Below are positions 17,847-63,795 of a stretch of 64,000 nucleotides of DNA, in pieces. Each line of letters begins with the position of its first letter. Within the stretch, counting starts at the first letter, position 1. This DNA comes from Stentor roeselii. Lineage: Eukaryota > Ciliophora > Heterotrichea > Heterotrichida > Stentoridae. Position numbers and translations under genes: made by a program. The notes beneath the pieces are model-generated. The model was not told where the DNA came from. It saw nothing but the letters and a program-made list of their open reading frames with translations, and searched no databases. The stretch covers positions 1 to 64,000 of the forward strand of contig RSEH01000139.1 in the NCBI GenBank assembly GCA_006503475.1. Direction: 5' to 3'.

Positions 17847-19184
17847 ATGATAAATAACAAAATGAAAGAAATCCTGAGAATCTACACGATTTCCGCAACA
17901 AACTTACTGGCCTCAGCCTGTTTCACAATAATTTCCTCATTCTACTCATCAACAGCATTGAAATCCGGAGTTCCAGAGGCTTTAATCGGTGTGATTTTCA
18001 GTACTTTCCCCCTTTTTTCAATAATGACCTCGTTTTTTGTGCCTTTTCTGATGGAAAAATTTAGCAGGTCTGCTATTCTTATCACAGGACTTGTTTTGAT
18101 ATCATTCAGCAGTATGTTGATTTCAGCTCTTGAAAGTTTCGAAGCTCCTCTTTCGATTGTTGTCAGTTTCGCGTCTAGAGCGATATCAGGGACTGGAGCA
18201 GCTTTTGAAGTTATTGCTGCAAACTCGATTCTTACCAGTGATTATCCGGAAAACGTACAGAAAATTATGGCTTTGAATGAAATTTTTAGCTGCCTTGGAC
18301 TTATTTTAGGACCTGTTGTTGGGTCTTTTATTTTTGTTTATGGAGGGTTTTTTGTTTCTTGCTTTTCGGTTGGAGTTGTTGTCTTGGCGTATGTTCCGGT
18401 TTTGGTTTTGGCTGTTGGTAGAGGGAATAAATACAAGATTGAAAGTAGAGAAAGTATTTCTGTTGGTAGATTGGTGATTAGGCCTGTAATTGAGATTTAG
18501 AGGATTTGTATTCACTTCTTTCTGGGTATGCTTATTACTCTTGCACTTGGGGTAAATATGCCGACTTTTCAATTCCATTTAATTTCTTACGGTATACAAG
18601 AGGATCTGATTGGTTATTGGTATATGATCACCACTTTAGCTTACTTAATGAGTTCTGTTGTATTGGGCAAGTTAAATTCAGAGAAATATGAAAGACTTTT
18701 ATACTCAGGGATTTGTCTTTACGCAATTGCTTATATGCTTCTAGGGCCATGTCCTCATATTTTTGCTAAAAGTTTGGTCTTAGTAGGCATAGGACATCAT
18801 CTAGTAGGATGGGCTTGCTCGATGCTTTACAGTATTTTTTATGTAGTTCCTTTGGTTCCTTATCTCATTAAAATTGCTAAAGAGGACTTCAACATCCAAG
18901 CCGATGATAGACTAAACGACGCGATTAACGTCATTGTCAATGTGTCGATATGTACTGGTGAAGTCATCGGCCCTCTCTTAGGCTCTTTCATTCCTTCTTA
19001 TTTTGAGCAAGAAATAAAATTCAAGATCACTTACTGTCTTGTCTCTCTTCTTTTTGTAGTCTTTGGGATTTTTTACATGATCTTCAACAAAAGTTCAAAC
19101 ACAAGCAGACAAATCGAACTTGAAGTTCCTTTTCTCGACAAAAGAAATGATTCAACATCATTAATCCAAAGCGAAAGTATTTAG
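17847..19184 (+). CDS. Major facilitator superfamily transporter (one 15-nt intron)
   Basis: About 440 aa after removal of the intron at 18486-18500. Twelve hydrophobic segments are expected. Recognisable MFS features are the first cytosolic loop region (PFLMEKFSRSAILITG) and GTGAAFEVIAANSIL in TM4/5. The LGPVVGSFIFVYGGF segment resembles SLC18B1-type and other drug/amine-proton antiporters of the DHA1 group. Without the intron the frame ends at TAG 18500; with it, IRPRICIHFFLGMLIT continues in frame. The substrate is unknown. Plus-strand sequence at 18300-18480 is extremely G/T-rich. The C-terminal tail is hydrophilic with Ser/Asp. Confidence 0.9.
18486..18500 (+). other. 15-nt spliceosomal intron in MFS gene
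   Basis: GTAATTGAGATTTAG. Phase 0. Removal joins the two halves of the transporter; the intron contains the in-frame TAG that would otherwise end it. A at position 10. Confidence 0.93.
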
Positions 19185-19240
19185 ATAAATAATTCCAGAC
19201 TAACTTAATCTTCCAATCCTCTAAATGAAAATAATCCTAT

Positions 19241-20833
19241 CTAATCATTTTGTTTATCAAAAATCCCTAAATATAACTCTCTTTCCCTCTCCATCATCTC
19301 CTTATTCAACCTTGTAATATCCAAAAGTTCAGCATTAAAAAGTTTCAAACTACTTTCATCCTTCATAACCTTAACCAACTCAATCGCTTTTTTCAGTTCT
19401 TCAATCGCAATCTGATAATTCCTCAGTTCTTTACGAGCAAGAGCCTTTCTATAAAGTGCTTTAACATCTCCAGGGCTAAGGGCGAGAACCTTATCAGCAT
19501 CTTCAGTTGATTCTAAAAATTTTCTGCTTTTGAAATTGCAAAGACTCATATTTCTATATAAAATAATCAGCTGTTGCTTGAAGTTATCCTCGTCATCATT
19601 GACAGGTTCTACAAAGTTAGTGGCAGCTTTGTATTTGTCGTAAGCTCTGTCAAACTTCTCGATTTTGAAGAACTTGTCACCTGCTAACTTGACTCTTCTG
19701 CTTTCTTGAAGCCTTTCATCAAGTGATAAGAGGTTGTTGGGTCTTCCAATCACGAAGCCGAGGTTTTTTATGTAGAAATAAGCGTATTGAACACCTGGTC
19801 GTTGGTACTGAGCAAAGTGGTATTGGGGAAGAAGACCGTCGGACATTTCGGTGGATTTGGGTAAGGTGAGGTCGCATTCAACTTTATATACGTCTCCGGA
19901 TTTCATTTGTCTTGAACAGTTGATCCAGAGAGTTGGAACGTCATCTTCGTCCATGTAGAACTCGACTGGCTCTTGGTCCCAGTTTGTAGCAACGATTTCT
20001 CCTTCGATTATATATCTGTAGAATACTTTCACTCGGGAGTTGTTATTTGGAAGGGTCCTATCCCCAGTCCCATCAACAAGTTCACATTTAAAAAAAGTAC
20101 AATCAAGAGTAACATCATGATACTTCAAGAACTTCTTAATAGTAATTTCCACAAAAACATCTTCATCACTAACATCCCCCGTGACATACTGTTTAAAATG
20201 TTCTTTAAAGTACTCGACCCCAACCTGTGTGACAGAAGTCTCAAACTTTTTCATAGCTCTTAAAATTTCAGCAACACCAGAGCCAACTTCAAAAACCTCG
20301 ATTCTATTATACCAGTCTTCAATTTGATATAAAATCGACTCTCCTTGAGTTATCTTCAAGTCCATTTTGCACTCATCCCTTCTCGCAAGACTCACGTCTT
20401 TTCCAGCGATTTTTACTCTTTTAATCATTCCACCTGGAAGATGAGTGCATTGGACCCAGTCGATCATATGAACCCTGAAAATCTTGGGGACTCCATCATT
20501 CATACTTCCAGGAATGTGGATTTGAGACTTTTCTCCTTTTTTCAGCTCACGAATCGCTCGGAAGAAAGATGGAAAAAGGTCAGACTTGCGATAAATTCGA
20601 GCCTCGCCGTAGTCTTCAAGAGAATTGGTGACATCTGCGATGCGCATCGTGATCTCGTCGTCTTCTCCTGGCTTGTCCCACCCTGACCCTCGTTCTAGAA
20701 TTTTTTTGTAGTAAACTTTTTTCTTACGGACCTCGAAACCGATTTTTTCGTTTAAAGGCTCTTCAGGAGGAGTTCCTTGAATCACTTTCATGGAGGGTTC
20801 AGGCTCTGGACCTTCGATTTCATGCAGGAGCAT
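19241..20833 (-). CDS. FKBP-like / TPR co-chaperone
   Basis: 530 aa with the architecture of large immunophilins (FKBP52/ROF1-like). Degenerate FKBP-type repeats lie in the first 370 residues; examples are VYYKKILERGSGWDKPGEDDEI and VKVFYRYIIEGE with the β-sheet pattern of the fold. About three TPR units follow at 385-500 (AGDKFFKIEKFDRAYDKY, ALYRKALARKELRNYQIAIEELKKAI). TPR domains of this class bind the Hsp90 C-terminus. The isomerase pocket aromatics are poorly conserved, so the protein may act as a scaffold. Strand composition alternates A/C, G/T, A/C along the gene. A 254-bp spacer separates its start from the divergent gene at 21088. Confidence 0.85.
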   Translation of the reverse strand: MLLHEIEGPEPEPSMKVIQGTPPEEPLNEKIGFEVRKKKVYYKKILERGSGWDKPGEDDEITMRIADVTNSLEDYGEARIYRKSDLFPSFFRAIRELKKGEKSQIHIPGSMNDGVPKIFRVHMIDWVQCTHLPGGMIKRVKIAGKDVSLARRDECKMDLKITQGESILYQIEDWYNRIEVFEVGSGVAEILRAMKKFETSVTQVGVEYFKEHFKQYVTGDVSDEDVFVEITIKKFLKYHDVTLDCTFFKCELVDGTGDRTLPNNNSRVKVFYRYIIEGEIVATNWDQEPVEFYMDEDDVPTLWINCSRQMKSGDVYKVECDLTLPKSTEMSDGLLPQYHFAQYQRPGVQYAYFYIKNLGFVIGRPNNLLSLDERLQESRRVKLAGDKFFKIEKFDRAYDKYKAATNFVEPVNDDEDNFKQQLIILYRNMSLCNFKSRKFLESTEDADKVLALSPGDVKALYRKALARKELRNYQIAIEELKKAIELVKVMKDESSLKLFNAELLDITRLNKEMMERERELYLGIFDKQND

Positions 20834-21087
20834 TTTATAGAATATGGAAAAATGGGCTTTGTGGAATTTTGGAAGATTTGGGAATGTTTTTTGAAATGTC
20901 TTTTTTAAAGGTTGAAGAGGATGTTTTGGTGGATGATTAGAATGGTTTGATTTTTAATGATTTTTATGGTTTTTTGTTGTGGTTACTTTGAAAAGTTTAG
21001 GGAATTATTTTAAAATATTATTTCTAGTGAAAGTGAGATTTAAACACAGAATTATTGAAATCTTAAAATCTTCAGTTATATATTTAA

Positions 21088-22542
21088 ATGAGTGAAAATG
21101 AAATAGATGTCGAAATTTTAAGTATTGTCCATGATAGTGTTAAAGGGGACGTGCTTTGTTACATCTATTCTGATTGTAACTTGATTGATGCTGTGACTTT
21201 AACTGAAGACTTGTATGAACCGGCTGTTACTACCATTCCTTCATGCCCGGAGCAAACGATTCAAATAATTGCGAAAGATCTGCTCCGCTCTCAACAAATA
21301 GGCACAGTTACTTTTTCTTTAGGTTTACTTCTTTCTCATAGTGAACCAATTAACCTTCCTATGAATCTTGCAACAATTGAAAGTCTTCCAACAGAGGTTC
21401 AAAAGCCTTTCATCCGAATTCAATGGTTTTCGAAAGATCAGATGAAAACCCCAAAAGACCTGCAAGTCGATTTAAAGCCCGACAGTGAAGCCTTAAAAGC
21501 CGTTCAAAGCGAGTTAGAAATCGAGAAGTGGAAAAACAAAGGACTGAAACAGCTTCGAGAAGAAATGAACTCAAGCGAAATGGCTCGAGTCTCCGCAATG
21601 CAGAAGCTTCAAAGCGTAGTTGAAGAATACGAGCAAGAAATAAACCTTCTAAAAAAGCAGATCGGGTACAACCCTTACGAGCAAATGATAACTCAACAGA
21701 AGCAATTTGAAGAAGAGTTTTACACAGCGATTAACGAATGGAAAACCAAAGAAAAAAGCTACATCGACAACATTTCAATCCTCGAAGAAGAAAAGTACAG
21801 CCAAGACTTGGAGATCTCAAAACTTCGAGCAGAAGGACAAATCACTCAACTTGAACTAGAAACTTGTAAAAATCTGTTAAAAGTCGAAAAAATCAAGAAA
21901 GAGCAAGCAACTCAAGAAGAACTTCAACTAAAAATCAAGATGTTAGAGGAAGAAATCGAAGAAAAACAAAAAGAATTAGAAATCAATAAAAAAATCACGA
22001 ATGAGGCTTTAGAACAGTTAAGTCATTTTCAGGTTCATAATACTTTTTTAAGGTCGCATATTGAAGCGATTGAAGAGAAACTTCAGGAGTTTTTAAAGGA
22101 GTCTCCTCCGGATATAGAAAAACTTGTCCAACACCATCTTCGTAGTTTGGACTTGGACCTCTCTATTGTCCAGGTCACTGAAAATATCTTCAAAATTGAC
22201 AACGAAACTTTGCATCTTTTCTTTGAAAAAACTGAACTTATGGTTCAACAAGCTGGAAAAACAAATACTTTTGTCAACTGGCTTGATAAGTTTAACTGGA
22301 AAAACAACTGTCATAAAAGGTCTAAAAGTGAAGATGTCAAAATCAATACTAAAGAAATTCAAGGAAGTCCTGAAGCGGCTCTTGATGTTGTACTTGAAGA
22401 GGAAGTTGAACATGATGAGGAACCTTTAAAGAAACAGAAAACTCCTGTCAAGCCTCAGAATGGAAAAACTTTGAAAAAATCACCATCTGGGAAAATTTTA
22501 AGGAATTATAGCCCGATTTTGAGTAAAAAGAAGGGAAAGTAA
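21088..22542 (+). CDS. C2-like N-terminal domain plus long coiled coil, 484 aa
   Basis: Residues 1-115 have the β-rich pattern of a C2-type domain (IDVEILSIVHDSV.GDVLCYI, then IRIQWFSKDQ at its end). A strong coiled coil follows from about 130 to 345. The tail is Lys-rich, disordered and basic (about 400-484). Membrane or microtubule tethering would fit, but this is inference. The ATG context is TATATATTTAAATG. The closest general resemblance is to ciliate C2/coiled-coil centriolar or axonemal proteins; no family name can be assigned. Confidence 0.82.
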   Translation: MSENEIDVEILSIVHDSVKGDVLCYIYSDCNLIDAVTLTEDLYEPAVTTIPSCPEQTIQIIAKDLLRSQQIGTVTFSLGLLLSHSEPINLPMNLATIESLPTEVQKPFIRIQWFSKDQMKTPKDLQVDLKPDSEALKAVQSELEIEKWKNKGLKQLREEMNSSEMARVSAMQKLQSVVEEYEQEINLLKKQIGYNPYEQMITQQKQFEEEFYTAINEWKTKEKSYIDNISILEEEKYSQDLEISKLRAEGQITQLELETCKNLLKVEKIKKEQATQEELQLKIKMLEEEIEEKQKELEINKKITNEALEQLSHFQVHNTFLRSHIEAIEEKLQEFLKESPPDIEKLVQHHLRSLDLDLSIVQVTENIFKIDNETLHLFFEKTELMVQQAGKTNTFVNWLDKFNWKNNCHKRSKSEDVKINTKEIQGSPEAALDVVLEEEVEHDEEPLKKQKTPVKPQNGKTLKKSPSGKILRNYSPILSKKKGK

Positions 22543-22787
22543 AGTTTTATAAATTAGAGTTTTTTTATTTAGTTGAGGATGGTTTTGAAGGGTTTTGTGA
22601 TTTTAAGTAAAGGATTTTTTGAATCTTTTGAGAAAATGATTTTGGATTTTTTGTGATTTTTTTGTTCTTTTTGGTTTTTTGGAGGGTTGTTAGAAGGCAG
22701 CTGGTTAAGTTGAAATGAATTAGAAATTCTAGAATTTTCTCGAATTTTCTATGACATATTTAATCTGGGTAAAACTATCACATATAA

Positions 22788-23423
22788 ATGGAAATTACAG
22801 AGTACGTAATGAAAATGCACTATTGCAATGATTGTCAAAGGAAAAGCATGGTTAATATAAGAGGATTGCTGAGATGTTCTGAATGTGGCGGACCGAATAT
22901 TGAACAAGTTAGACCAAGACGTCCTCATCGAGTCACCGAAGATCACCAATGGGACAACTACATGTCAAGTTTCAACAGTCCCAGAAGACAACAAAGACAA
23001 CCTCGTGATTTTTTCCAAACCGGAATATCTCATTTCGGAGGTCTCTTCAACAGAAGACAAAGAAACCTATTCGATGTCTTTTTCACCCACTTTCCAGATT
23101 TCGAATCTGGAACAATTCACTCATTCTTTGACGAGCCTTTTCCATTCTTCGTGTCAATGACAGACATCGGTGACATTTTAAACCACATGGCTCAGCAGCA
23201 TCCAACTGGTCACACCCCTGCAAGCCAAGACCGGGTGAATCAACTTCAAGATCACACAATAACCGAAGGCGAAGTTTCTGAAGTTTGTTCAGTATGCCAG
23301 GAGAACTTCCAAACTTCAGAAGTTGTGAAAGAACTGCCTTGCAAGCATCATTTTCACACTGACTGCATCGTTCCTTGGTTCCGTGTAAAAGACTCATGCC
23401 CTTTATGCAGGAATCCGATATAA
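22788..23423 (+). CDS. RING-H2 E3 ubiquitin ligase with N-terminal zinc ribbon (RNF126/115-like)
   Basis: 211 aa. An N-terminal zinc ribbon (CNDC...LRCSECGGP, about residues 13-39) and a C-terminal RING-H2 finger (CSVCQENF...LPCKHHFHTDCIVPWFRVKDSCPLC, about 165-207) are joined by a Gln/Arg/Phe-rich disordered linker. This is the RNF126/RNF115/BCA2 layout, in which the zinc ribbon binds ubiquitin and BAG6-type partners in protein quality control. All eight RING zinc ligands are present. The start is in the context CATATAAATGG. Confidence 0.93.
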   Translation: MEITEYVMKMHYCNDCQRKSMVNIRGLLRCSECGGPNIEQVRPRRPHRVTEDHQWDNYMSSFNSPRRQQRQPRDFFQTGISHFGGLFNRRQRNLFDVFFTHFPDFESGTIHSFFDEPFPFFVSMTDIGDILNHMAQQHPTGHTPASQDRVNQLQDHTITEGEVSEVCSVCQENFQTSEVVKELPCKHHFHTDCIVPWFRVKDSCPLCRNPI

Positions 23424-23572
23424 TAAGAATGTAAGCTAATAATTTGATGATAATCTTAAAGGTATTCAATAAATCATCAGAAAATTGATAAAAATTCTTA
23501 AAAAAATCATTTTTTATTTGAAATTTGAATAACTTGTTTACCCAAAAAAAATCAATTTTGTTGACAATAAAA

Positions 23573-26792: not shown

Positions 26793-27815
26793 ATGGTCAG
26801 CATCATTCCTCCGAAACCAAGAGAAACAGCAAAACTCTCTTATTACACTAAAGGTGAATCAGAAAAATCAATAAAACCGTCTTTTTTTAAAACACATGCA
26901 GCAGAGCCAGGACATGCTGCGACGATATTACAGAGAAATCCCGTAACACCTGAAGAATTTCCTGTTAAGCCTCTTACTTCAAAAGTTCGAACATCTGGTT
27001 ACACCCCAGGCCTTTACGCAGGCAGATCAGATAAAGTTGAACATAACTGGAAAGGACCAAGTTCTCTATCAGAGGCAAAACTAATCAAGCAAAAAGAATA
27101 CGCTTTGTAATCATCAAGCAGACTTGCGAATAAACCGACAGTGATATGTGCAAAGACTGTAACAAAGAAAGACTTTTCCATAGAAAACTCCTGCAAAAGT
27201 GAAGAAAAATTCCCAATAAAAGAAAACTGGTTGTACCGAACAAAAGCTCCTCCAGTGATAAAAGATCCTAAAAAAGACGCATTCGGATACTCAGAAGACG
27301 GCCCAGACTGGTTCAAAGTAGGAGAAAGCAACCTGGTAAAAGATCACAGATTTGAAAACTCACAAGGCTACGACGGTACAATGACCATTCTCAGCCGTAT
27401 CTCAGGCTGGATCACAGTAAGTCCTCATTCCAGGAACCGTCAAAAGCGTTTAGGCCGTTACGGCCCTTTTGACAAGTCAAAAAAAGGTTTTAACTTTCAG
27501 AATGTCTCTGATTTAGCACCTTCCTGGATGCAGGGCGAGTATCAAAGAATCGAGAATCCTGATTTTAAAAATCAAATCGCACCTGCTAATCTAAGAAAAG
27601 AGCAAAAAAGGGTTTTTTTAGTGGAAAAAGAACCGACTAAGAAATCAGTTTTTAGCTACGGGGACTACAGACATGATGTGATGACCTCAGAGGAGGCGAA
27701 GAACTACTCAACGGGACTTTATCAAGCGCCACAGAGGTTCATTGAGTGGAAAGAAGAGGTGAAAAATCAGAAGTTTGATAAACCGATCACTGGAAAGATC
27801 GGCTCAAGGTACTAG
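26793..27815 (+). CDS. Ciliate hypothetical protein, 335 aa, one 15-nt intron
   Basis: The two coding parts join across the intron at 27107-27121 (phase 2) to give one basic protein without membrane segments. It is rich in Lys, Pro, Tyr and Arg with extended Pro/Gly loops (EPGHAATILQRNPVTPEEFP, TSGYTPGLYAGRSDK) and short KDFS/FSYGDYR-type pieces. This loop-rich character resembles microtubule-lumen proteins of cilia, but I do not recognise a named family, so this is only a guess. The next gene starts 25 bp downstream in the same direction. Confidence 0.85.
27107..27121 (+). other. 15-nt spliceosomal intron
   Basis: GTAATCATCAAGCAG. Phase 2. Splicing restores LLANKPTVICAKT; unspliced, the frame stops at once. 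A at position 10. Confidence 0.92.
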
Positions 27816-37152: not shown

Positions 37153-38316
37153 ATGGACTCTGATTCCTCCCTGCCATCGAAGCTAGAAATATCAAAACTG
37201 CGTTGCATTCTCGATAGTCTAGAAGATGAGATAAAGCTTTCCTACACCCAAACCCGTCCTAAATTCAACGACGAGGTTGAAGCCCAGTTGCGACATGCCC
37301 TAAGTGAAGTATCTCATCGAGAAAAAGACTTAATCGCGATAGTCGGTATTTCAAAGCATTTGATTCAGTCATATCAGGACCTGGAAGAAAAGTTCTTGAA
37401 ACTTCAGGAAAAATCAGAGACTTTGTCACAAAATCTCGAAAGTCTTAATTCTGAAAATTTTAAATTAAAGGAAGAAAATCAGCTGATGGAAGATAAGTAT
37501 TTAGAGACTCTTGATGATAAGAATAAATTGGATGAAGAGGTTCATCGACTTGAGTCCAGACTTCAAGTCATGAAAAGAGAAATGTCGAAGAAAAGTGTAA
37601 AGCTCAGTCTTGATATTTCTAATTATATGAGCGCCTCTGATGAGATCTTTGACTTGAGCTCACATTATAGAGAAGAACTGGAAGCTGGAAGAAGTAAGAA
37701 ATAAACAGATTATAAAAAAGACTCGGAAAGTAAAATACAGGATCTTGAAAATAAAATCAAAGAACTAAGAAAGACTGTCAAGGAACAAGAAAAAATCATA
37801 GAACAGATGAAAGAAGAAAAAGATGTTTTTAGTCATTCTTCACATGTACAGTCTACTGATGCTGATAGTTTTGTCTCTTCCAACAGGCCTAGACCCTGCC
37901 TAATTAAAACTTCTTTCACCAGGTTTGGATCTGAAGATACTGAAAACAACCTGGAGTCTTACAAAGAGTCTTTAGAAAGTGAAACTCTTATAAACACATC
38001 GCTTTGCACACCAATTAAAACTTTTGATATAGTTCCAGGGGATAAGATAATGATTTATGCGAAATCTGACCATTTCCAAGAGTTCACAGAAGAAATTTTC
38101 TTTAATATGGTGAGTTTTATTTAGACTCTCAATGCAATCAAAATTAATCTTCCGCAGTACTCAAGCCTTGGAGTTGACGCGAAAGACCTGTTTAGACTTG
38201 CTGTGAAATCAGGTATTCCTCTGCATAAATGGAACATGTGGATTGAGAGCCAACTCAATCTCTTATTGATTAAAAATAACTCCAAGTGTAGCATAATTCC
38301 AAGAGGCAAGCGATAA
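37153..38316 (+). CDS. Coiled-coil protein with two 15-nt introns, 377 aa
   Basis: Three exons (37153-37693, 37709-38109, 38125-38316). Spliced, residues 20-245 are largely coiled coil (QLMEDKYLETLDDKNKLDEE, then KIKELRKTVKEQEKII across the first junction). A Ser-rich linker follows, and the C-terminal part contains ordered sequence (VPGDKIMIYAKSDHFQEF, YSSLGVDAKDLFRLAVKSG, PLHKWNMWIESQLNLLLIK). No family is recognised. Both introns are needed: without the first the frame stops at 37704, and without the second at 38124. Probably structural. Confidence 0.9.
37694..37708 (+). other. 15-nt spliceosomal intron
   Basis: GTAAGAAATAAACAG. Phase 1. A at position 10. Restores the coiled coil. Confidence 0.92.
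38110..38124 (+). other. 15-nt spliceosomal intron
   Basis: GTGAGTTTTATTTAG. Phase 0. The only one of the seven starting GTG instead of GTA. A at position 10. Confidence 0.9.
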
Positions 38317-43219: not shown

Positions 43220-45295
43220 ATGTTTAAGACAGTGGCACTGTTTCTTTTTTCATTAGCAATATTTCTAATACACCGCCAGAGTCATCCAAATCTAACATCA
43301 TACCTTCCTCTTCGAATCTACTCATCAAGCCCAGTAGTTGAAACAGTTTTTTTCTTGCGAAAAACCTTCATCACTGTAAAGAAAGACGTAGATCTTTTAA
43401 AAAACAGTGACTTTCCCTACAAGTTTTCACCTTTAAACCAAAGTGACACAGAAAAGCAAAAAAACCTTCATCTTTTATGCAGTCCGATTTCATTTGGTTA
43501 CAATCAAAAAGCTTCCAAAAAAATCTTCCCAGATTTCCATTACCCTCCCTGTTCAGAAGTGACAGGTAAAAACGAATCAACTGTTTACATCGATAGAAAA
43601 ACTAATAAAATTCAATTCACCTGCAATAAAAAACACAAACGCATGATAAAAGGACCATTAGCGAATTTGACTCTTATGAATCAAAGTTTCGTTGAAGATG
43701 CCAAACTGGTCATGGTTGACCCAAGTACTTTAAATGCTGCAGAAACTGAATACGTTTTCGGTTTTTGTAATAAAAAGAAATTTAAACATCGGATTAGACT
43801 TCAACAAAGATATGCAGGGTCACACATGACACCTTTATATAAACCTGAATTGAATATCACTTTGAAGAAAAAAGGAAAAATTATTTTTATGTTGACTCTT
43901 GATTCATTTTCTAGGAATCACTTTTACCGAAAACTTCCAAATGTTGTTGAACTTTTAAATAAAAGTGAAGAACTTTTCCCTGATTATTCAGTTTTTGACT
44001 TTAAACTTCACAGTACCTATTCCCGAGACACTATAACAAACCAGTCTCCTATATTCGGAGGGAAAGATTACATGAAAAAACAGAATCATAGCAATCATGA
44101 TAAATTAGGAAATAATGCTCTTTGGTTTCAACTAAAGGAAAAAAAATTTATTACTTTTATAGGACTTGATGACTGTGATAAGGGCTTCACTAGGGAGTTA
44201 GGACAAAATATTAAAATTGATTACTCGGTCAGGCAGTTTTATTGCATCACTGAAATGTATTTTCGAATATTGAACTCGAAGAAAAACCTTGAACAGCGAT
44301 GCTTAGGTCCTCATCAAATTCACTTTTATTTACTGAATTACACTCTTGACTTATTGAGACTTTATCCTACTTCGAATATTTTTATTTACCTTCATTTGAA
44401 CGCGGCTCATGAGAAAACTGGACAACATGCTATTACTTTGAATAATGATTTAACTAACTTTCTTCAGGATTTTTTTAAGGTTACGAAAAATTCAGAAGTT
44501 TTTATGTTTCTTGGAGCTGATCATGGAATGAGATATGGTGCTTGGTATCACTCGGTTGAAGCTTATCAAGAAACTAAACTTCCAGCAATGTTTGTGATTG
44601 CAAGTAAAAGTTGGTTGGATCGATATCCCAAGTCTTATCATTCACTTTCTGAGAACTCTTGGAGATTAACTTCAAAACTAGACATTCGAAAAACAATCTT
44701 ATCTTTGGCAGATATCGAAGATGAAGAGAGTAAATCAATAAACCTTTTACAAGAAATAGCATCAACTTCAAGACTCTGCATGGATATAAATGTAAAGCCT
44801 GCATACTGTGCATGTTCGAACACGGAAAAACTTAAAAACTTCAACTCAGAACTTAAATCATTATTCAAAAGTATCGCTTTTCATGTAGAAAACTTAATAA
44901 ACACTAAGGCTTATACCTTTCATCGTTTACCTCCAGGTCTTTACTGCAAAAAAGTTGAATTAAAAATCATTAAAAACGCTTTTCACATCGATATCAACAA
45001 TTTACTAGAAATTTTTATTATCGAATTCGGGATTCATTCATCTAAAGCCAGGTTCAAAGTCACTGTTTTAGTTGGCACTGAATTTTCTACGGTGAAAGAA
45101 GAAGAATCTCAATATAAGTGGTTTGAAATCAAGCCAAATATGTTTAGGATGATGGCAAAGGTAAATGAAAAATAGGTTATTGATATTGAAAGAACTGATA
45201 AGTACGGTGGACCTTTTCAAAACTTTTTGGAGAAGGTGGGAATTGACCCTGAGTTTTGCATTCCGAATGATTACTTACTAATCAAATATTTTTAA
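43220..45295 (+). CDS. DUF229-like alkaline-phosphatase-fold membrane protein (one 15-nt intron)
   Basis: 686 aa after removal of the intron at 45161-45175. An N-terminal signal-anchor (about residues 3-17) is followed by a lumenal region. The catalytic-fold core is seen as IFMLTLDSFSRNHFYRKLP (about 225-243), like the DxxSRxxFxRxLP motif of DUF229 proteins, and FLGADHGMRYGAWY (about 435) with the metal-binding DHG. DUF229 belongs to the sulfatase/alkaline phosphatase superfamily; the substrate is not known. The C-terminal domain (about 520-686) contains Cys clusters (LCMDINVKPAYCAC). The second exon adds 39 residues. It lies between the two channel paralogs. Confidence 0.88.
45161..45175 (+). 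other. 15-nt spliceosomal intron
   Basis: GTAAATGAAAAATAG. Phase 0. A at position 10. Splicing extends the protein by 39 residues (VIDIERTDKYGGPF...). Confidence 0.85.
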
Positions 45296-48124: not shown

Positions 48125-48132
48125 TCTATACA

Positions 48133-55831: not shown

Positions 55832-56173
55832 ATGAAAGTTTATAATATGGAACTACATGAAAATATTGAACCCTCACCCAGATCAAAATTTCGACCTGCA
55901 TCAATATTAACAAAATCAATAAACCTAACCCCAACTCCAGGTACAATAATCCACCTTCCTTCAGGTAAGACCGCGATAGCGCACGGAAGTGGTTTAGAAA
56001 AGTTAAAAAGCGAATTAGAAAAGCCAATTCCCTACAAAAAATCCTCATCAGTAAAGCAAATCTCAACCCTCCAACCCCGTCCCAAACACGTAAAGCGTCC
56101 AGCCAAGTTTTTAACTATCACTCTCGAAGAAATCCTCGAAATGTACGATAAATCATTAAGTCAAGTAAACTAA
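55832..56173 (+). CDS. Small basic hypothetical protein, 113 aa
   Basis: ATG to TAA. Extended N-terminal part (NIEPSPRSKFRPASIL) and a helical C-terminus (FLTITLEEILEMYDKSL). No known domain. An alternative ATG is six codons in (MELHENIEP). Lies 18 bp from the stop of the convergent WD40 gene, as expected for a real gene. Confidence 0.72.
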   Translation: MKVYNMELHENIEPSPRSKFRPASILTKSINLTPTPGTIIHLPSGKTAIAHGSGLEKLKSELEKPIPYKKSSSVKQISTLQPRPKHVKRPAKFLTITLEEILEMYDKSLSQVN

Positions 56174-56191
56174 ACAATTAAACCTGTTCCT

Positions 56192-57781
56192 TCAAACCAA
56201 ACCATTTTTCCATTCCTGAATTTCATCATCTCCACGAATGACTTGTTTCAATGCCAAACTTTTAATATCCCAAATCCTTAAAAGTCCAGGTTCTTCAACA
56301 GCAACATGCATTTCATCAATTAAAACAACCGACTTGATGTTTTTTTGATTTCCTCCAAAAACCCAGATCAGCCTTCCTGATTCGATTTCCCAGAGCCAGA
56401 CTCGATTAAAGTTATCTCCAGTCACTGCTACTTTCCCGTCGTTACTCACTTGCAAACTTTTCAGGTCTCCAGCGTGAAGCATTTCTTTTGACTCTTCGAA
56501 TGTTTCGAGGTCCCAGACTTTTAAAGATTTTCCTGAAACTGATAAGAGTTTCTTGTTGTCTGAAGAGAGATAAAGGCTTCTTACTAAACCTGGGTGAGAT
56601 AGGGTTTTGTAGGAATCAATGGAAAGATCCCATATTGTGATTTTACCGTCGCCGGAACCGGTGAAGATCTTGGTCGCTTGGGTGTTGAATAGGACTGAGT
56701 ATATCGCGGAATTTGAGGATTTTAACTTTTTGAGGATTTTTTGAGAGGGAAGATCCCAGATTATGATCTGCCCAATTTCGTCACTTGTTACTAATAAGGA
56801 GTTGTTTGAGCTTATGTCGAGAGACCAGACGTCTGCTGAGTGGCCTTGCAGTGTAGCTTTCAGTGAATACTTTGGAAAGTTCCAAATTTTCACCAGCTTA
56901 TCACATGACCCTGTCACTAAAAACGACCCATCATGTGACAATCGTGTCGATAAAATCCAATTCGCATGTGCCGGTACATTTTTTTGATTAACCTTTAATT
57001 TAAAGTTGATTTCCTGCATATTTGAATTCCCAGTGACCAAAACTGCATCATCATACTTCAAATCAATAATATTATAAATTCTATGTTTTCCTGAATACAA
57101 CTTTTCAATAACCCCTTCAGTTAAGTTGACAGAATAAATTGACCCAGCCATTGTCCCGAATAACAAAACTTCTGAGTTGGAATAAAAGGAAATCGAAAGG
57201 ACTTCACTTTGCCTGTCATCAAAAATCAGTCCGATGCCTTTGACCAGAAAATTTGTTTTTGTTTCTAGTGAGTTTTTAGCATTGTTTAGCCCTTCGATTG
57301 CTTCGAGTTTCGATGAATCGTCTACTGGACTCGCAATCAAAAGATTAGACTTTCCTGGTGATGGGCTTTTCAAGGGCTTTGTTAATGATGGCTTTGATTT
57401 CTTTACTTTACCTGTTAATTTTATTAGTTGTTCTTCGAGATCTTTTAAACTTTCAGAACATTTCAAGTTACTTTCAGAGTTTCGACGAAGTTCTGAGAGT
57501 TCGTGGAAAACGGACTTCATTGAAAGGTGATGAGATAGAAGAAACCAGCAGAATGATAAAAAAATTGATATGATTAGAAGATAGATTTTTGGAAAGGTCT
57601 TTGTTGGTTCTTTTTTGGATTTTAAGATAATTTTCCTTACTCTTGAGATTTCTTCTCTTCTAATAAAAGTGCTCAAGTCATGAATCTGATGTTCCCCACA
57701 GCTAAAAGTATGCTGTTCATTAAAAGTCCAATCAAACTGCGGATCATTCAAACAATCATTAACAAAACATCTAAATTCCAT
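56192..57781 (-). CDS. Membrane-anchored WD40 protein
   Basis: 529 aa from the ATG at 57781. Residues 1-35 carry a Cys/His cluster (CFVNDC...FSCGEH) that could bind zinc. A single membrane segment (about 70-90, IYLLIISIFLSFCWFLLSH) follows, then a coiled coil to about 170 and seven or eight WD40 repeats to the end (LVKIWNFPKYSLKATLQGHS, IIIWDLPSQKILKKLK, KITIWDLS, SLKVWDLETFEESKEM, RVWLWEIESGRLIWV, LRIWDIKSLALKQV). The propeller would be on one side of a membrane. Stop TGA. The start lies only 36 bp from the divergent gene at 57818. Confidence 0.9.
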   Translation of the reverse strand: MEFRCFVNDCLNDPQFDWTFNEQHTFSCGEHQIHDLSTFIRREEISRVRKIILKSKKEPTKTFPKIYLLIISIFLSFCWFLLSHHLSMKSVFHELSELRRNSESNLKCSESLKDLEEQLIKLTGKVKKSKPSLTKPLKSPSPGKSNLLIASPVDDSSKLEAIEGLNNAKNSLETKTNFLVKGIGLIFDDRQSEVLSISFYSNSEVLLFGTMAGSIYSVNLTEGVIEKLYSGKHRIYNIIDLKYDDAVLVTGNSNMQEINFKLKVNQKNVPAHANWILSTRLSHDGSFLVTGSCDKLVKIWNFPKYSLKATLQGHSADVWSLDISSNNSLLVTSDEIGQIIIWDLPSQKILKKLKSSNSAIYSVLFNTQATKIFTGSGDGKITIWDLSIDSYKTLSHPGLVRSLYLSSDNKKLLSVSGKSLKVWDLETFEESKEMLHAGDLKSLQVSNDGKVAVTGDNFNRVWLWEIESGRLIWVFGGNQKNIKSVVLIDEMHVAVEEPGLLRIWDIKSLALKQVIRGDDEIQEWKNGLV

Positions 57782-57817
57782 TTCTTTCCCGATTAACCTA
57801 AACCTAAATAAACTCAA
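57782..57817. promoter_or_regulatory. 36-bp bidirectional promoter between start codons
   Basis: All DNA between two divergent ATGs is 36 bp; both transcripts must start in or near it, or inside the coding sequence of the partner. Confidence 0.6.
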
Positions 57818-60082
57818 ATGAACAAAATTATAACCCGTTCAATCAAAACAAGTGAAAGTGCCGAACGTCCATCAATTCCAATAAAATTCCTAAAAAAGCG
57901 AGGAAGTTTCGACAACAGCGACAAGCCCAACTTAAACCTTTCCTCGTCAATGTCAAATTATAACGACCAGTTCCCCCCTTTTAACGCCCAAAACAAAGTC
58001 TTTTCAAGTACAAAGGCCTCAGAGTCGCCCCTAAACCGAAAGTCTCACAAATCGTCTTCAGTATCAAAATGTCTTCAAAACAACCTCGATTCAATAAAGC
58101 CCGAAACCTTTAAATTTTGGGAAGTTTCTGAAAGAATTGAAAGTCTCGAAATTCGAATAAGCAAAAACCCTGAAACTAGTCCTGCTTCAAAATTGCATTT
58201 TTGGAAAAATTGCTGTGCTGAAGTCGTTTCTTTGATAAAAAGTGAATCTGTTGAACTGGGAAACGCCGTTCAAAGACTTGTGAAAGGAAGTCTTTTAGCC
58301 CTGGATGAGGTTTGTCTCGAGTTTTCACTTGAAAAAGCGAGATTTGAAAGGAATTTTAAAGAAATCTCTGAAGTTTTGAAAGGAAAGGACCTGGAAATTG
58401 AAAAGCTGAACAAAGAAATTCGAGGGTTTAAGTCGGTGAAGTTGGAACAGGACTGGAAAATTAATTCACAGATCAAAGAGCTTTTTGAAGAATTAGATGA
58501 CGATGAAGAAGAAGTGAAACAAGCGAAAATCCGATGTGAGAAGCTTTTGAAGACTAAAAACAACTCACTTGTCCCCCTTTTACAAGAAATTCATGAAAAT
58601 CTAAGAAAAGGCAGAGATAATCAAGAGTACCTCGACCCTGAATTCGACCAGCCGAACCCTGACGATATTTCAAATGCTTTGAAATTCAATTTTAACCTCA
58701 TCTTGAAGGCATCAACGAAAAAAGCTATGAAACTTCTGAGAAAAGATGTAAAGACTAAGATCATGGCGACTCAAACAATGATCGCTTGTGTTTCTGCAGA
58801 AGAATATCAGGATCTTATGAAAAAACTAGAAAAATCAACTATCAGTCAGCAGAGTCTTGCTGCGCAACTTGAGAAGTACAGAGATGATGTCATTATAAAA
58901 AGTCAAATCGCTGAAAAAGCTGAGCAGGATAAAAACCAGGCTTATAACCAAATCATTAAAATGAGGAAAGAAATTGAAAGTTACTTAAAGGAAAATTTAA
59001 ATATTAAAAAAGACAATGAAAAACTCAATAATGAAAAAGAAAAATTTGCGAAAGAACTGGAAATGAAAAATGGACTTTTGATTAAAACTCAGGAGAAACT
59101 TGCATCTACTGAGAATAAATACAAGAAAATTCTGAATAAAACCGCACAACCTACTCATTTTATCAACGACTTAGAAAAAAATGACGTTTTTAATAAACAG
59201 CCTTCTGAGAAAGAAATCGTTATCTTGAATCAAGAAGTAGTAAAGTACTCAACCAGGTATCGGCCAGGCATGAACTCAAGAAAAAACTCAAAAAGCAACA
59301 TTTACGAAGGAAAAACTTTAAACTATGAAAACTTTTTCAACAAGTCAAAAAACCAAAATTCCAATCAAGCCTCAAAAACTTCCTTATTAGACGACTACAT
59401 AAATTCTATAAACCAGAACCCGAAAACACGAAAACAAAGTCAGGTAATATCCCAGAATTCTCAAAATAGAAGAAAATCTTCAGTGTTTTCTAATGAAAAT
59501 TCTCCTATTCACAACAGAGCCACTGATACTGACAACAGACATGAAAATTTAGAAAGGCCAGATTTTTCTGAGTCGAAGCGAAAGTCTATTAAAATCAATA
59601 TCTTGCAGCCTGAAGGATCTCAGTTCACTGAGCCTGATGACGAAACTCCCGTCAAAAACGAAAAAGTAGGAACCAGCAAAACTAAGGCAAAATATCAAGA
59701 AAATAGAAGAATTAGCATGAAAAATTCAGGGAATAACCCGAAAATTGAAGAGTTAGAGAAAGGTAAACAAGATAAGGATGTAGATATTTCACAAAAAAAT
59801 ACAAGGGTTTTGGAGATTAATGGGAAATCTGTTGTTTTTGTTGATGAGTCTACGAATACTATTGAAAAAATTTCAACTTTTTGTAGCATCGGGCTGCAAT
59901 GTGGAGGCAGTTCTACTGAGGAGGAACAGAAAGACCTATTTGGACATCTGGGAATCTTTCATTTCAACCCAAATAATTTCTTCGGTTTCAAAGGCGATGT
60001 TTTTTTCAATGGAAATGTCTTTACAGCGCAGCCTACGATGCCAGACTGTCCTATTTCGCTTGGTAAAAGTAATAATTTATAA
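57818..60082 (+). CDS. Large coiled-coil protein, 754 aa
   Basis: Ser-rich N-terminus (1-115), coiled coil (about 170-260), helical domain (about 270-340), coiled coil (about 350-480), then a Lys/Ser/Asn-rich disordered part. The C-terminal 70 residues are more ordered and hydrophobic (NPNNFFGFKGDVFFNGNVF). No family recognised; size and layout suggest a basal-body or cortical scaffold. Converges with the Myb gene, stops 7 bp apart. Confidence 0.85.
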   Translation: MNKIITRSIKTSESAERPSIPIKFLKKRGSFDNSDKPNLNLSSSMSNYNDQFPPFNAQNKVFSSTKASESPLNRKSHKSSSVSKCLQNNLDSIKPETFKFWEVSERIESLEIRISKNPETSPASKLHFWKNCCAEVVSLIKSESVELGNAVQRLVKGSLLALDEVCLEFSLEKARFERNFKEISEVLKGKDLEIEKLNKEIRGFKSVKLEQDWKINSQIKELFEELDDDEEEVKQAKIRCEKLLKTKNNSLVPLLQEIHENLRKGRDNQEYLDPEFDQPNPDDISNALKFNFNLILKASTKKAMKLLRKDVKTKIMATQTMIACVSAEEYQDLMKKLEKSTISQQSLAAQLEKYRDDVIIKSQIAEKAEQDKNQAYNQIIKMRKEIESYLKENLNIKKDNEKLNNEKEKFAKELEMKNGLLIKTQEKLASTENKYKKILNKTAQPTHFINDLEKNDVFNKQPSEKEIVILNQEVVKYSTRYRPGMNSRKNSKSNIYEGKTLNYENFFNKSKNQNSNQASKTSLLDDYINSINQNPKTRKQSQVISQNSQNRRKSSVFSNENSPIHNRATDTDNRHENLERPDFSESKRKSIKINILQPEGSQFTEPDDETPVKNEKVGTSKTKAKYQENRRISMKNSGNNPKIEELEKGKQDKDVDISQKNTRVLEINGKSVVFVDESTNTIEKISTFCSIGLQCGGSSTEEEQKDLFGHLGIFHFNPNNFFGFKGDVFFNGNVFTAQPTMPDCPISLGKSNNL

Positions 60083-60088
60083 ACTTAC

Positions 60089-60655
60089 CTAAGAGTTAGA
60101 CTTTGACACTAGACCCGACAGGTGGGTAATTAAATAGTCCGAGGCCATCTCACTGGAAGTATTTCCTAGAGTTGACTTGGCACTCTTAATCAATGTATTC
60201 CATCGATTTTTAACCGAGTTTTCAGTGCGTCCCTTGAACTCCTTAGCAATGATACTCCACTTCCTTCCAATATCCTTATGTTTCTGAAGTAATGTCAAGT
60301 CCTCCAAATAAGTCCATTCTCCCTTGTTAATAAGAGGGTCTAAATGGTTGTTCCATCGTTCTCTACAGTTTTTCCCTTTGCGTAGATTATTGAAGCAAGC
60401 ATTAAGCTCAACAGCGATTCTTGCCCATTTTTTTATTCCATGTTCTTGAACCAATTCTCTGAGTTTTGAGTCTTCCTCATGTTTCCAAGGCTTGGACTTG
60501 ATCCCACCTCTAGGCAAGCTGGGGACTTTTTCATTCAAATCTTCAGGAATGTTGCTCAGGTTGTAGACCGGAACGAATTTTCCATTCTCGTAGTCTGGAA
60601 TACAAGGCACCCAGATTACTGACGGTGAAGGATATGAGGAATACATAATTTCCAT
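60089..60655 (-). CDS. R2R3-type Myb transcription factor
   Basis: 188 aa with two Myb repeats. R2 (about 55-110) has W-x18-W-x20-W spacing: PWKHEEDSKLRELVQEHGIK..WARIA...CRERWNNHL. R3 (about 112-162): GEWTYLEDLTLLQKHKDIGRKWSIIAKEFKGRTENSVKNRWNTLI. Both helix-turn-helix recognition helices are intact. This is the DNA-binding form of animal c-Myb and plant R2R3-Mybs, often cell-cycle regulators. No clear activation domain; the protein is short. ATG context TTATAATGG. Confidence 0.95.
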   Translation of the reverse strand: MEIMYSSYPSPSVIWVPCIPDYENGKFVPVYNLSNIPEDLNEKVPSLPRGGIKSKPWKHEEDSKLRELVQEHGIKKWARIAVELNACFNNLRKGKNCRERWNNHLDPLINKGEWTYLEDLTLLQKHKDIGRKWSIIAKEFKGRTENSVKNRWNTLIKSAKSTLGNTSSEMASDYLITHLSGLVSKSNS

Positions 60656-60802
60656 TATAACGCTTATCTAATTAGCCAGAATTTAAAGAGTTTTAAAGGT
60701 GTTTATGGGAGAAACGCTTATGTGGAACTGTGATATATTTTACTGGTTTTTGGAGACCTGGAGAGTTTTATTGTTTTTAAATACCATTTTTAAGTAGACT
60801 GC

Positions 60803-61777
60803 CTAACTACTGGATTGGTAGTCGTCTGATTTACGGAAAATAAAACCTCGGATTGAGAAGAAGATTGAGGATAGGATCGTCAGAGAACCTACTGTTATGT
60901 AAACTATGCCAAGGTTTTTGTTATCCCCGCCGAAATTATTGCATGTTGAGAGGACAAGGTGAATTTCACTTCCTTTTGGGATTGGGTTTATTTCTGCTGT
61001 TGTTGGTTCGATCTTGAATGTATATTTTCCCTTTTTAATGGTTTTGTCAATTTTTCCATAGAGTTTTTTGAAATTTGATTTTGCTGCTATTTTCATCCAG
61101 ACTATGAAATGTTCTAGTTAATTTTTACCATTTTCGATATCAGTCCAGTTAACTTTTTTATCATTATTTTTAAACCGGTGCTCTTTTTCGTAGTCCCAAC
61201 TTATGTTTTCATCAACTATTTCGTAGTCTTTTGAAGTTATTATAATATTAGGGTAAGATTTCGCGACAATTCCACAAGGAACAGCAACTTCATCTTTTTT
61301 ATCTTTAGGTATGTTTATTTTACTTTCCTTATATCTTTTCTTCAATAATCCTTTTGTATCAGCATGATGACATTGCTTATCTGCTTCAACACGCGAAATT
61401 TCATTTCCTTTGAGTTGTTTATAAGAAATACTCTGCAAATATTTTCTACGATTTTGAAAATACTTGCTTATCTCATAGTACACAAAAACAGGTTTTTTCA
61501 TTTCCTTGTCAACTTTAACTATGACTTCCACTTCTTTTCTATTATCCTTTTCATTCAAGTTTATTTCATATCTGACTTCTCTTATCTGATTTCCATAATA
61601 AACCAAAACAGCTCCAATGACGATAAAGACGACTCCTAATAAAGCTAAAACAATGATAGCAGTCTTAATAGAAGGCTGAGGTTTATACGATTTAAACAAA
61701 ATCCTGCGAATTTTGCTTTTCTTGACTTTTTCAGGTCCGATCTGACTAGACAAATTATCATTAGGAAGAATGCTCAT
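60803..61777 (-). CDS. CDC50: CDC50/LEM3 flippase beta subunit (one 15-nt intron)
   Basis: 319 aa after removal of the intron at 61114-61128. The cytosolic N-terminus is followed by TM1 (about 40-65, IVLALLGVVFIVIGAVLVYYG). A lumenal domain follows with the family motifs YYEISKYFQNRRKYLQS and CGIVAKS, and DIENEHFIVWMK spans the intron junction. The KLYGKID and LSTCNNFGGDNKNLGIVYI region precedes TM2 (about 285-308). CDC50/TMEM30 proteins are obligate partners of P4-ATPase phospholipid flippases. The exon junction reproduces the very conserved VENEHFIVWM sequence, so it is certain. Confidence 0.97.
61114..61128 (-). other. 15-nt spliceosomal intron in CDC50 gene
   Basis: GTAAAAATTAACTAG on the minus strand. 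Phase 1; A at position 10. Splicing rebuilds the conserved DIENEHFIVWM motif exactly. Confidence 0.97.
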
Positions 61778-61816
61778 TATTTATTATCAAATAGAATAAG
61801 TTTTATTTCTTAGTTA

Positions 61817-62245
61817 TCACTGTCCAAAAGACACTTCAAGTGAATCTCCAAAAAGTGGTTTTTCAACAGTTTTCAGTATTTTCGAGCTTTGCGACCTTCC
61901 CGATTTTAATGACTTAGAACTAGGAGTAGCTGGCATAAGACTAAGTCGACACTTACTCACCTTATTAGAAGAAACACTTGAATTCAAATTTCGTGGTGAT
62001 AAAACAAATTTCTTAGAAACCTTTAAAATGCGAGGAGAGGTCACCACTGTGTTTGTCTTCAATTTAGGTAGTCTCAAAGCTCCTGATACACAAACAGGAA
62101 GAAGCCTGCTCGGCCTGTTTGGACTGAGAAGTTTAAAAGGGTCAGCTTTAAGCGAGGCAAAGTTCTTACTGGGAAAAAGAGCCTGTTGGAAGAGTTTCGA
62201 CTGCTCCTGAGGCTTCAACTGTTCTAAATATTTTGGCGATTCCAT
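61817..62245 (-). CDS. Small basic hypothetical protein, 142 aa
   Basis: ATG at 62245 (MESPKYLEQLKPQEQSKLFQ) to TGA. Ser/Lys/Arg-rich with conserved-looking blocks PSRLLPVCVSGALRLPKLKT and SPRNLNSSVSSNKVSKCRLS. No named domain, likely phosphorylated scaffold or cytoskeleton-associated. Divergent with the gene at 62334 (88 bp between start codons). Confidence 0.75.
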   Translation of the reverse strand: MESPKYLEQLKPQEQSKLFQQALFPSKNFASLKADPFKLLSPNRPSRLLPVCVSGALRLPKLKTNTVVTSPRILKVSKKFVLSPRNLNSSVSSNKVSKCRLSLMPATPSSKSLKSGRSQSSKILKTVEKPLFGDSLEVSFGQ

Positions 62246-62333
62246 AATTAATACATTCAAAAACTGATAAATTAACAACACCCTGGTCAAACCACTTTTC
62301 TTTCTCAAAGTTCAGTAAAGACTTAAAATTAAT

Positions 62334-62987
62334 ATGAAAAAAAACCTGATTTCTATTCAAAGAAGCAAATCAATGCCGAAGTTCCAGTCAAAGTCCTCAT
62401 CTCGCATCCCAAGTCCAGAAAAATCAAAAGAAAAGTACAGAACTGCTATAAAAGCACTTCGGTCTTCGAAATTTTCTCAACTTTTCACGAGAGTGTCTCA
62501 CAATGACACACTTTTAAAGAACTATCGAGATTTTCGCTTTACAAGTAAACAAAAAAAGATGAATTCAGCCTCGTCTTGTGAAGGACTCGATATAAGAAAA
62601 CATCCTAGCAAGAAAATTTTAATTAAAAGACAAAAAACTTTAGAAAATTTCAACGATTTGATTGAAAAATGCAAAGTTGTTAGAAGCAAAGTTCAAAATT
62701 CTCAGGTTGTTGAAGAATGCAAACAATTTAATGTTGATCTTGGAAGATTGAAAAAAAATATTGAAAAGATTCAGGTTGATGAAGACTCAAGAAGGAAAAT
62801 TCATTCGAAAACTGAAAAAATGCTGAAAAAAGACTCGAAAAGACTTAGGAATCAAATAGAGTTTAGTGAAAGGAAAAGTAATCAGAAATGTTGTATTTGG
62901 AAACACAGGTCGGGGTTTTTAAATAGAAAAACTGATAAATTAATTGCCGATATTCAGATTAGGCTTAGACATAACGAATTTGAATAG
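62334..62987 (+). CDS. Basic helical hypothetical protein, 217 aa
   Basis: Lys/Arg/Ser-rich, with an N-terminal basic tail, a coiled coil at about 110-165 (KNIEKIQVDEDSRRKIHSKT) and a basic C-terminus with helical IADIQIRLRHNEFE. No family recognised. Possibly microtubule-associated. Confidence 0.78.
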   Translation: MKKNLISIQRSKSMPKFQSKSSSRIPSPEKSKEKYRTAIKALRSSKFSQLFTRVSHNDTLLKNYRDFRFTSKQKKMNSASSCEGLDIRKHPSKKILIKRQKTLENFNDLIEKCKVVRSKVQNSQVVEECKQFNVDLGRLKKNIEKIQVDEDSRRKIHSKTEKMLKKDSKRLRNQIEFSERKSNQKCCIWKHRSGFLNRKTDKLIADIQIRLRHNEFE

Positions 62988-63021
62988 GAATGATATTTTT
63001 CGAGAGGGTTAGAGGAATATG

Positions 63022-63795
63022 TCAATTTAGGGAACTTACTGGCCGAGAAGGGAGAATATGGAGGGTACCTTCTATTAATTCTATTCTTGTTATCATTTTT
63101 TTTAGATCTAGCTCGTCTCCGCAGATTTCTTGGACTTCACAGGGAAGTAAATGAAGCATTAGACGGTCTGGCATAGCTAAATCAAAAGCAACAATTCTAA
63201 AATTATCTGAATTTTTGTATATTTCAACTAAAAAACTTCTTCCATTCAATATTTTTCCCTGTCTCATTAAAAGTTTCCCTGAATTTTTCAAACTTGGAAC
63301 ATTTTTCTTCAATGAAGATGAAGTTGAGCTCATTTGTCTCTTCAGCTTTCCAATCAAAGGAAATTCAGAAATATTCGATAAATACTTTTCAGTTTTTTTT
63401 CTGTGATCATTCAAACTGTCAAGGCGATAAAATGATTCTTTTCTTTTAATTCTCTCAAAAAGACTTGAGTTTTCCTCATTTATTTCTTTCATTCGAGTTT
63501 TTCTTGCAGTTTCGTTGAGGCTTTTTTTGTGGCTGATCCTCTTGAATGAGCTGGTTTTATTTTTGATTTTAAGCATTTTTTCATAAAGAATCCGGTTTTC
63601 TCTTTCGATTTCGGTGCATTTTTCTGATTATTTCATACCTTCTAAGAGCTGAACCTTTTTGGCATTGGTGACCCGGCAAGTCGAAAGAGGAGACAAAGAA
63701 TTAACAACAGCTTTACTCGACTTAACTCTCTTATCATGTCCAATCTTCCTCTGAAACTCCTCCCTCCTAAACACGACCTTATTTCCCTGATACAT
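63022..63795 (-). CDS. CFAP97-like ciliary protein (one 15-nt intron)
   Basis: 252 aa after removal of the intron at 63624-63638. The N-terminus (MYQGNKVVFRREEFQRKIG) leads to a segment across the junction reading LLEEKCTEIERENRILYEKM, the signature of the CFAP97/hemingway (KIAA1430) domain, ending KMLKI. CFAP97 and its relatives act in cilia and flagella. The remaining 150 residues are Lys-rich and then more ordered (DNFRIVAFDLAMPDRLMLHL). Stop TGA. Without the intron, an internal Met (63576) would give only the second exon. Confidence 0.85.
63624..63638 (-). other. 15-nt spliceosomal intron in CFAP97-like gene
   Basis: GTATGAAATAATCAG on the minus strand. Phase 1; A at position 10. Splicing rebuilds the EERENRILYEKM-type signature. 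Confidence 0.93.

Follow-up and report, generated by a model that had tools for sequence, protein, structure and literature searches.

The window analysed here, a stretch of 64,000 nucleotides from contig RSEH01000139.1 of Stentor roeselii (assembly GCA_006503475.1), contains seven 15-nt elements that we interpret as introns, together with an eighth candidate and the SF3B6 (p14) gene (Table 1). All seven elements follow the pattern GTR...YAG and carry A at position 10 (A10). The 5′ end is GTA in six and GTG in one, and the 3′ end is (C/T)AG throughout. Excision fuses two open frames at every site, and the retained form always carries an in-frame stop within the element. This re-reading of all seven sites, together with the opening of their frames, bore out the earlier note, which had listed seven introns with this length, these ends and A10.

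Table 1. Intron elements and the SF3B6 gene in the window
Feature	Sequence	Position	Strand	Phase	Host gene	In-frame stop (intron positions) or remark
15-nt intron	GTAATTGAGATTTAG	18486..18500	+	0	MFS transporter, 17847-19184	TAG at 13-15
15-nt intron	GTAATCATCAAGCAG	27107..27121	+	2	26793-27815	TAA at 2-4
15-nt intron	GTAAGAAATAAACAG	37694..37708	+	1	37153-38316	TAA at 9-11, covers A10
15-nt intron, GTG start	GTGAGTTTTATTTAG	38110..38124	+	0	37153-38316 (intron 2)	TAG at 13-15
15-nt intron	GTAAATGAAAAATAG	45161..45175	+	0	DUF229, 43220-45295	TAG at 13-15
15-nt intron	GTAAAAATTAACTAG	61114..61128	-	1	CDC50/LEM3, 60803-61777	TAA at 9-11, covers A10
15-nt intron	GTATGAAATAATCAG	63624..63638	-	1	CFAP97/Hemingway, 63022-63795	TAA at 9-11, covers A10
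Eighth candidate intron	GTATTTTTTATGTAG	18832..18846	+	1	MFS transporter, shared with 18486	No in-frame stop; absent from the earlier note
SF3B6 (p14)		13773-14126	-			117 aa, one RRM; best matches are p14 chains 3lqv_A and 2f9d_A

Domain analysis revealed that Pfam domains run continuously over three of the seven junctions. Splicing of the 18486 intron yields an ORF of 440 aa, in which the MFS_1 match (residues 18-321) spans the junction at residue 213, whereas the retained form stops at residue 217; the MFS_1 score is 95.7 bits spliced versus 61.6 bits retained. Likewise, the CDC50 match (74-310) spans the 61114 junction at residue 216, and the Hmw_CFAP97 match (20-111) spans the 63624 junction at residue 52. 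Splicing at 45161 gives an ORF of 686 aa, in which the DUF229 match (176-564) stops short of the junction at residue 647. At 27107, the spliced ORF measures 335 aa and the retained form stops at residue 105; this gene matches no Pfam family at E values up to 0.01.

Without the five residues encoded by the eighth candidate, at 18832, the MFS_1 score is 102.6 bits rather than 95.7. Among nine control deletions nearby, one, directly adjoining, scored higher (105.9 bits), and the other eight ranged from 85.5 to 96.6 bits. Given this candidate, the set of seven may be incomplete. A 16-nt candidate on the minus strand (13761-13776) was rejected, as this segment is where SF3B6 naturally ends and the next gene begins.

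Spliceosomal components

A genome search covering U2 and U6 recovered a U2 gene (6.0e-30) with GTAGTA and a U6 gene (1.2e-24) with ACAGAGA, recognition motifs that indicate the presence of the major (U2-type) spliceosome. Searching the window against Rfam and for tRNA genes gave no hits. The earlier note had found it attractive to compare the SF3b interface of SF3B6 with that of other eukaryotes. Judged by its alignment to p14 of solved structures (109 residues, gap-free, 2.6e-37), however, the window SF3B6 is an ordinary p14, and its gene ends at TGA. It is CWC25 that departs instead, which shifts attention away from SF3B6 and towards that protein: the first Met after an in-frame stop begins MGLAFLNKKSW, a start that lacks the Gly-Gly-Gly plug, given for human CWC25 as Gly2-Gly3-Gly4 in the available part of PMC9505925. 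The ISY1 N-terminus begins MGEKKPPPGEDKV. Its match to the homolog 6ff7_w starts at residue 33, and those to isy-1 8ro0_D and ISY1 5gmk_H start at residue 11, so that ISY1 may depart from the usual form within its first ten residues at most.

Blind scan for short introns

We performed a blind scan of 314 kb, with controls, in which GT-AG candidates were identified by coding frames and A10 was not used. At 15 nt, the scan returned 14 candidates against a control mean of 2.0 (8 against 1.67 under stricter settings), and 12 of the 14 carry A10; the remaining two are either false matches or genuine exceptions. Outside the window, A10 occurs in seven of eight candidates. Under the loosest settings, 15-nt candidates without further restriction number 20, 14 of them with A10, hardly more than at 19 nt (17) and 16 nt (15), and only the GTR...YAG subset stands out at 15 nt (12 versus at most 5). 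Two of the seven window introns were missed at 15 nt, 18486 failing the downstream score and 63624 the upstream score. At 18486 the scan put forward a 17-nt alternative in a different frame; the MFS family match, which follows the 15-nt frame, contradicts it. Over the same 314 kb, GTA...YAG words with A in the sixth position from the end, counted loosely, numbered 53 at 15 nt and 26 to 53 at other lengths from 11 to 24 nt; such counts, dominated by chance matches, say little on their own.

In the 11 candidates that fit GTR...YAG, the inner base that varies least is A10 (10/11). Position 4 is A in 9/11, and this A belongs to the 5′ splice site. Alternatively, A10 could be kept for a different purpose, for example to contact a 3′ splice-site factor, the branch point lying elsewhere or varying in position. 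Such a role would be compatible with the fact that the branch position is deduced indirectly, both here and in the available part of PMC9505925. Nevertheless, the constancy of this one inner base and the standard GTAGTA kept by U2 argue for a branch adenosine, and we regard a different role as improbable.

In-frame stops and the A10 signal

Since 15 nt is a multiple of three, an intron shows up in the raw sequence only if it contains an in-frame stop. In three window introns (37694, 61114 and 63624, all phase 1), the revealing stop is T9-A10-R11; A10 lies inside the stop and is there partly selected for, and so does not count as independent evidence. The same applies to 4 of the 14 blind-scan candidates. 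The window introns alone therefore overstate A10, and in-frame-stop ascertainment is a general warning wherever introns are picked by hand, as it inflates the A10 signal among them. Could A10 then be largely an ascertainment effect, forced by TAA or TAG at positions 9-11? Where the stop lies elsewhere, A10 is nevertheless present in all four window introns (chance about 0.012 at A = 0.33) and in 8 of 10 scan candidates against 3.3 expected (three of the ten being window introns), including five of six outside the window.

Whole-genome counts, which ignore reading frame, also stand against ascertainment. For one T-rich motif class across the 44.4 Mb assembly, compared with a reversed-pattern control that is not reading-frame matched, 15-nt words with A10 number 424 versus 111 in the control. 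The corresponding counts are 159 versus 324 for 15 nt without A10, 110 versus 270 for 14 nt, 8 versus 58 for 16 nt and 3 versus 19 for 17 nt. Within this class and over lengths of 14-17 nt, the pattern thus exceeds its control only at 15 nt with A10. The wider data rescue A10, and an explanation by ascertainment is left with very little probability. In this genome, an A located six bases from the 3′ end is supported as a feature of the 15-nt intron population as a whole. The earlier note's reading of the elements as very short introns of the heterotrich kind is likewise supported. We also considered active avoidance of 16-nt T-rich words, which fall below the 14-nt class (Fisher p about 0.004); this idea was dropped because the 17-nt ratio is alike.

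Readthrough or reassignment of in-frame stops, or sequencing errors, are highly improbable alternatives to introns. Some frames do become longer when TAA is taken as sense (the second longest grows from 2652 to 3222 bases), but some lengthening is bound to follow whenever the commonest stop is dropped; taking TGA or TAG as sense hardly alters the longest frames. Family matches run on over three junctions, and the breaks agree in length, at both ends and in an inner A, a motif that errors would not share.

Proposed mechanism and implications

Collectively, we assign a probability of about 0.92 to the reading that these are ordinary U2-type introns of the Stentor kind under the standard code, mainly 15 nt long with GTR and YAG ends, in which A10 most likely serves as the branch adenosine and the length is most likely fixed by fit to the catalytic centre. 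This reading draws on the sequence pattern, the genome-wide excess in one motif class, the opened frames, domain continuity at three of seven junctions, the U2 and U6 motifs and the plug-less CWC25, all of which are shown here; that the elements are spliced in the cell, that A10 acts as the branch point and why the length is fixed are inferred. U2 would present A10 as the branch adenosine, the 2′-OH of A10 would attack the first G of the intron, and a 10-nt lariat with a 5-nt tail would be released. With the 5′ splice site, branch A and 3′ splice site all gripped in the catalytic centre, no RNA would be left over, and this would fix the length.

Introns of 15 nt test how tightly a spliceosome can work, with the 5′ splice site, branch point and 3′ splice site held simultaneously. 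This question is already in print for Stentor, and the present analysis adds support from a 44.4 Mb assembly. It is conceivable, albeit unlikely, that the intron ruler is stricter here than in S. coeruleus, permitting 15 nt and no other length. All introns would then be multiples of three, so that a frameshift would never expose retention. Nonsense-mediated decay would fail to recognise stop-less introns such as the 18832 candidate, whose retention could yield proteins five residues longer.

Comparison with other ciliates

Spliceosomal introns of Stentor coeruleus were reportedly a subject of Slabodnick et al. 2017. The seven elements appear to be genuine introns of a type already described for the giant ciliate Stentor, and the observation holds but is not new. 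In the available part of Nuadthaisong et al. 2022 (PMC9505925), 8173 of 8806 S. coeruleus introns are 15 nt long and 8005 carry A10; a further 633 of the 8806 are 16 nt long, and 442 introns carry A11. The published reading for that species, an A10 branch point with a 10-nt lariat, is deduced from position there as it is here. As far as that part of the paper extends, the two species share the 15-nt length, GT-AG ends, a stringent GTA, A10 and AT-richness, together with the conserved U2 GUAGUA and U6 ACAGAGA and a CWC25 lacking the Gly-Gly-Gly plug. The same source describes loss of conservation at the S. coeruleus ISY1 N-terminus, which is only partly matched here, and a minor 16-nt class, against which our 16-nt T-rich count (8 versus 58) is too weak to establish a difference.

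Tiny introns also occur in Blepharisma stoltei, whose gene-dense heterotrich macronuclear genome has introns mostly of 15 and 16 bp, according to the available part of PMC9942806. The same text assigns UGA to tryptophan in B. stoltei, whereas here SF3B6 ends at TGA and reading TGA as sense gives no longer frames. Beyond the heterotrichs, the karyorelict Loxodes magnus, from their sister group, has tiny introns too. There, in the available part of PMC11441545, the mode is 17 bp, lengths below 16 are negligible and 3n lengths are relatively depleted, in contrast to the 15-nt introns of S. roeselii.

Introns of the window and their host genes

Inspection of the window confirmed that all seven 15-mers listed in the earlier note are present, distributed over six genes (see table). 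Excision fuses the open frames on either side into a single, longer one in every case (7/7), and each retained 15-mer contains a stop within the element (7/7). Three of the seven junctions are spanned by a Pfam domain (MFS_1, CDC50 and CFAP97), and the MFS_1 score of the gene holding intron 18486 is 95.7 bits when spliced versus 61.6 when retained. TGA and TAG act as stops in this genome, a usage that fits Stentor, which has the standard genetic code, and not Blepharisma.

Introns and a spliceosome gene of the window
Feature	Position	Strand	Host gene or product
Intron	18486	+	MFS transporter
Candidate intron GTATTTTTTATGTAG	18832-18846		MFS gene, second exon; phase 1, without in-frame stop
Intron	27107	+	Protein without Pfam match
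Intron	37694	+	Gene shared with 38110; Pfam matches only below curated cut-offs
Intron	38110	+	Gene shared with 37694
Intron	45161	+	DUF229 protein
Intron	61114	-	CDC50/LEM3 protein
Intron	63624	-	CFAP97/Hemingway protein
SF3B6	13773-14126	-	117 aa

Elsewhere in the window, open frames are tightly packed over 983-10088, where the seven gaps among the first eight listed measure 5 to 40 bases, and 10521-11240 consists of 720 bases of N. Runs of GTAA...AAG words, spaced mostly 19 bases apart and forming a tandem repeat, lie at G000:C2:31718-31880 and G000:C2:33249-33414.

Ascertainment of the conserved adenine

Because 15 is a multiple of 3, raw sequence reveals only introns with an in-frame stop. 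The earlier note's observation of adenine at position 10 (A10) holds for all seven introns, but in three of them (37694, 61114 and 63624) the revealing phase 1 stop, T9-A10-R11, takes in A10 itself, so that these do not count as independent evidence. The remaining four have their stop at positions 2-4 or 13-15, and all four carry A10 (chance ~0.012).

The candidate at 18832 may illustrate this bias. With its five residues deleted, MFS_1 scored 102.6 bits instead of 95.7, and MFS_1_like 25.7 instead of 21.5. Among nine five-residue control deletions nearby, eight gave MFS_1 scores of 85.5 to 96.6 bits, and one, adjoining the candidate, reached 105.9 (MFS_1_like 26.5). The MFS protein seems to carry about five surplus residues near 18832, whose exact edge the deletion scores do not set. 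This candidate suggests that the set of seven was limited by visibility.

Blind scan and whole-genome motif counts

We ran a codon model over 314 kb, comprising the window and a further 250 kb of its assembly, and looked for GT...AG segments between 9 and 100 nt long that, once excised, leave two coding stretches joined. The scan made no use of the adenine and took the mean over nine control dinucleotide pairs as its control. At settings 0.5/30, 15-nt segments numbered 14 against a control mean of 2.0, with 6 versus 2.9 at 14 nt and 4 versus 3.0 at 16 nt; at 1.0/25, the 15-nt count was 8 versus 1.67. Five of the seven window introns were recovered among the 14, while 18486 and 63624 were missed at 15 nt by failing downstream and upstream coding scores, respectively. 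The scan also listed a 17-nt version of 18486 in another frame, which is contradicted by MFS family matches that follow the 15-nt frame.

A10 was present in 12 of the 14 candidates, in 8 of the 10 whose stop is clear of position 10 (binomial chance ~0.003), and, outside the window, in 7/8 (5/6 with the stop clear). At the looser settings 0.0/20, the bare 15-nt count of 20 (14 with A10) barely exceeds those at 19 nt (17) and 16 nt (15); its GTR...YAG subset comprises 12 segments of 15 nt (11 with A10) versus at most 5 at any other length from 12 to 21.

Across both strands of the whole genome, we counted patterns of a T-rich class, each with its own reversal as control; this control is unmatched for reading frame, and the class covers only part of all introns. 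GTAWNTTTTANNTAG (15 nt, A10) occurred 424 times versus 111. The other T-rich patterns gave 159 versus 324 (15 nt, not A at position 10), 110 versus 270 (14 nt), 8 versus 58 (16 nt) and 3 versus 19 (17 nt), confining the excess among the lengths counted (14-17 nt) to 15 nt with A10. Assuming a background ratio of 0.41 to 0.49, this excess amounts to ~370 to 378 A10 matches versus 0 to 26 non-A10. The 15-nt, A10 pattern is a direct sequence observation.

Spliceosome components and proposed mechanism

The genome encodes U2 with GTAGTA (6.0e-30) and U6 with ACAGAGA (1.2e-24). SF3B6, which had been proposed as an attractive branch-site comparison, proved ordinary: it aligns gap-free over 109 residues to p14 of solved structures, chains that we take to be human, and so gives no sequence sign of a special branch-site contact. 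ISY1 has the N-terminus MGEKKPPPGEDKV. It matches the ISY1 homolog 6ff7_w from residue 33 onwards and the structure chains 8ro0_D and 5gmk_H from residue 11, which limits doubt to its first ten residues.

Most likely, the major spliceosome removes these introns in the usual two steps. We infer branching at A10, which would most likely act as the nucleophile, giving a lariat with a loop of 10 nt and a tail of 5 nt. The fixed length is best explained by a catalytic centre that has to accommodate the three reactive sites and leaves no RNA to spare. Altered N-termini of branching factors might perhaps aid this fit, as already conjectured in print.

Comparison with known heterotrich introns

CWC25 of this genome (L037, contig 316) begins MGLAFLNKKSW and lacks the Gly-Gly-Gly plug, resembling the Stentor coeruleus CWC25 presented in PMC9505925, where the human protein is described with Gly2-Gly3-Gly4. 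That work counts 8806 S. coeruleus introns, 8173 of 15 nt and 633 of 16 nt; 8005 have their branch A at position 10 and 442 at position 11. Its authors propose that the lariat measures 10 to 11 nt and carries a tail of 5 nt, and that branching factors avoid steric clash (PMC9505925). Heterotrich introns are described as ~95 per cent 15 bp, the remainder 16 (PMC11441545), and those of Blepharisma as mostly 15 and 16 bp (PMC9942806). The conserved A of S. coeruleus is discussed as a likely branch point, with credit to Slabodnick et al. 2017 (PMC10946202). Since the published S. coeruleus introns share the same form, the 15-nt, A10 pattern put forward earlier for S. roeselii is a correct rediscovery of a known feature.
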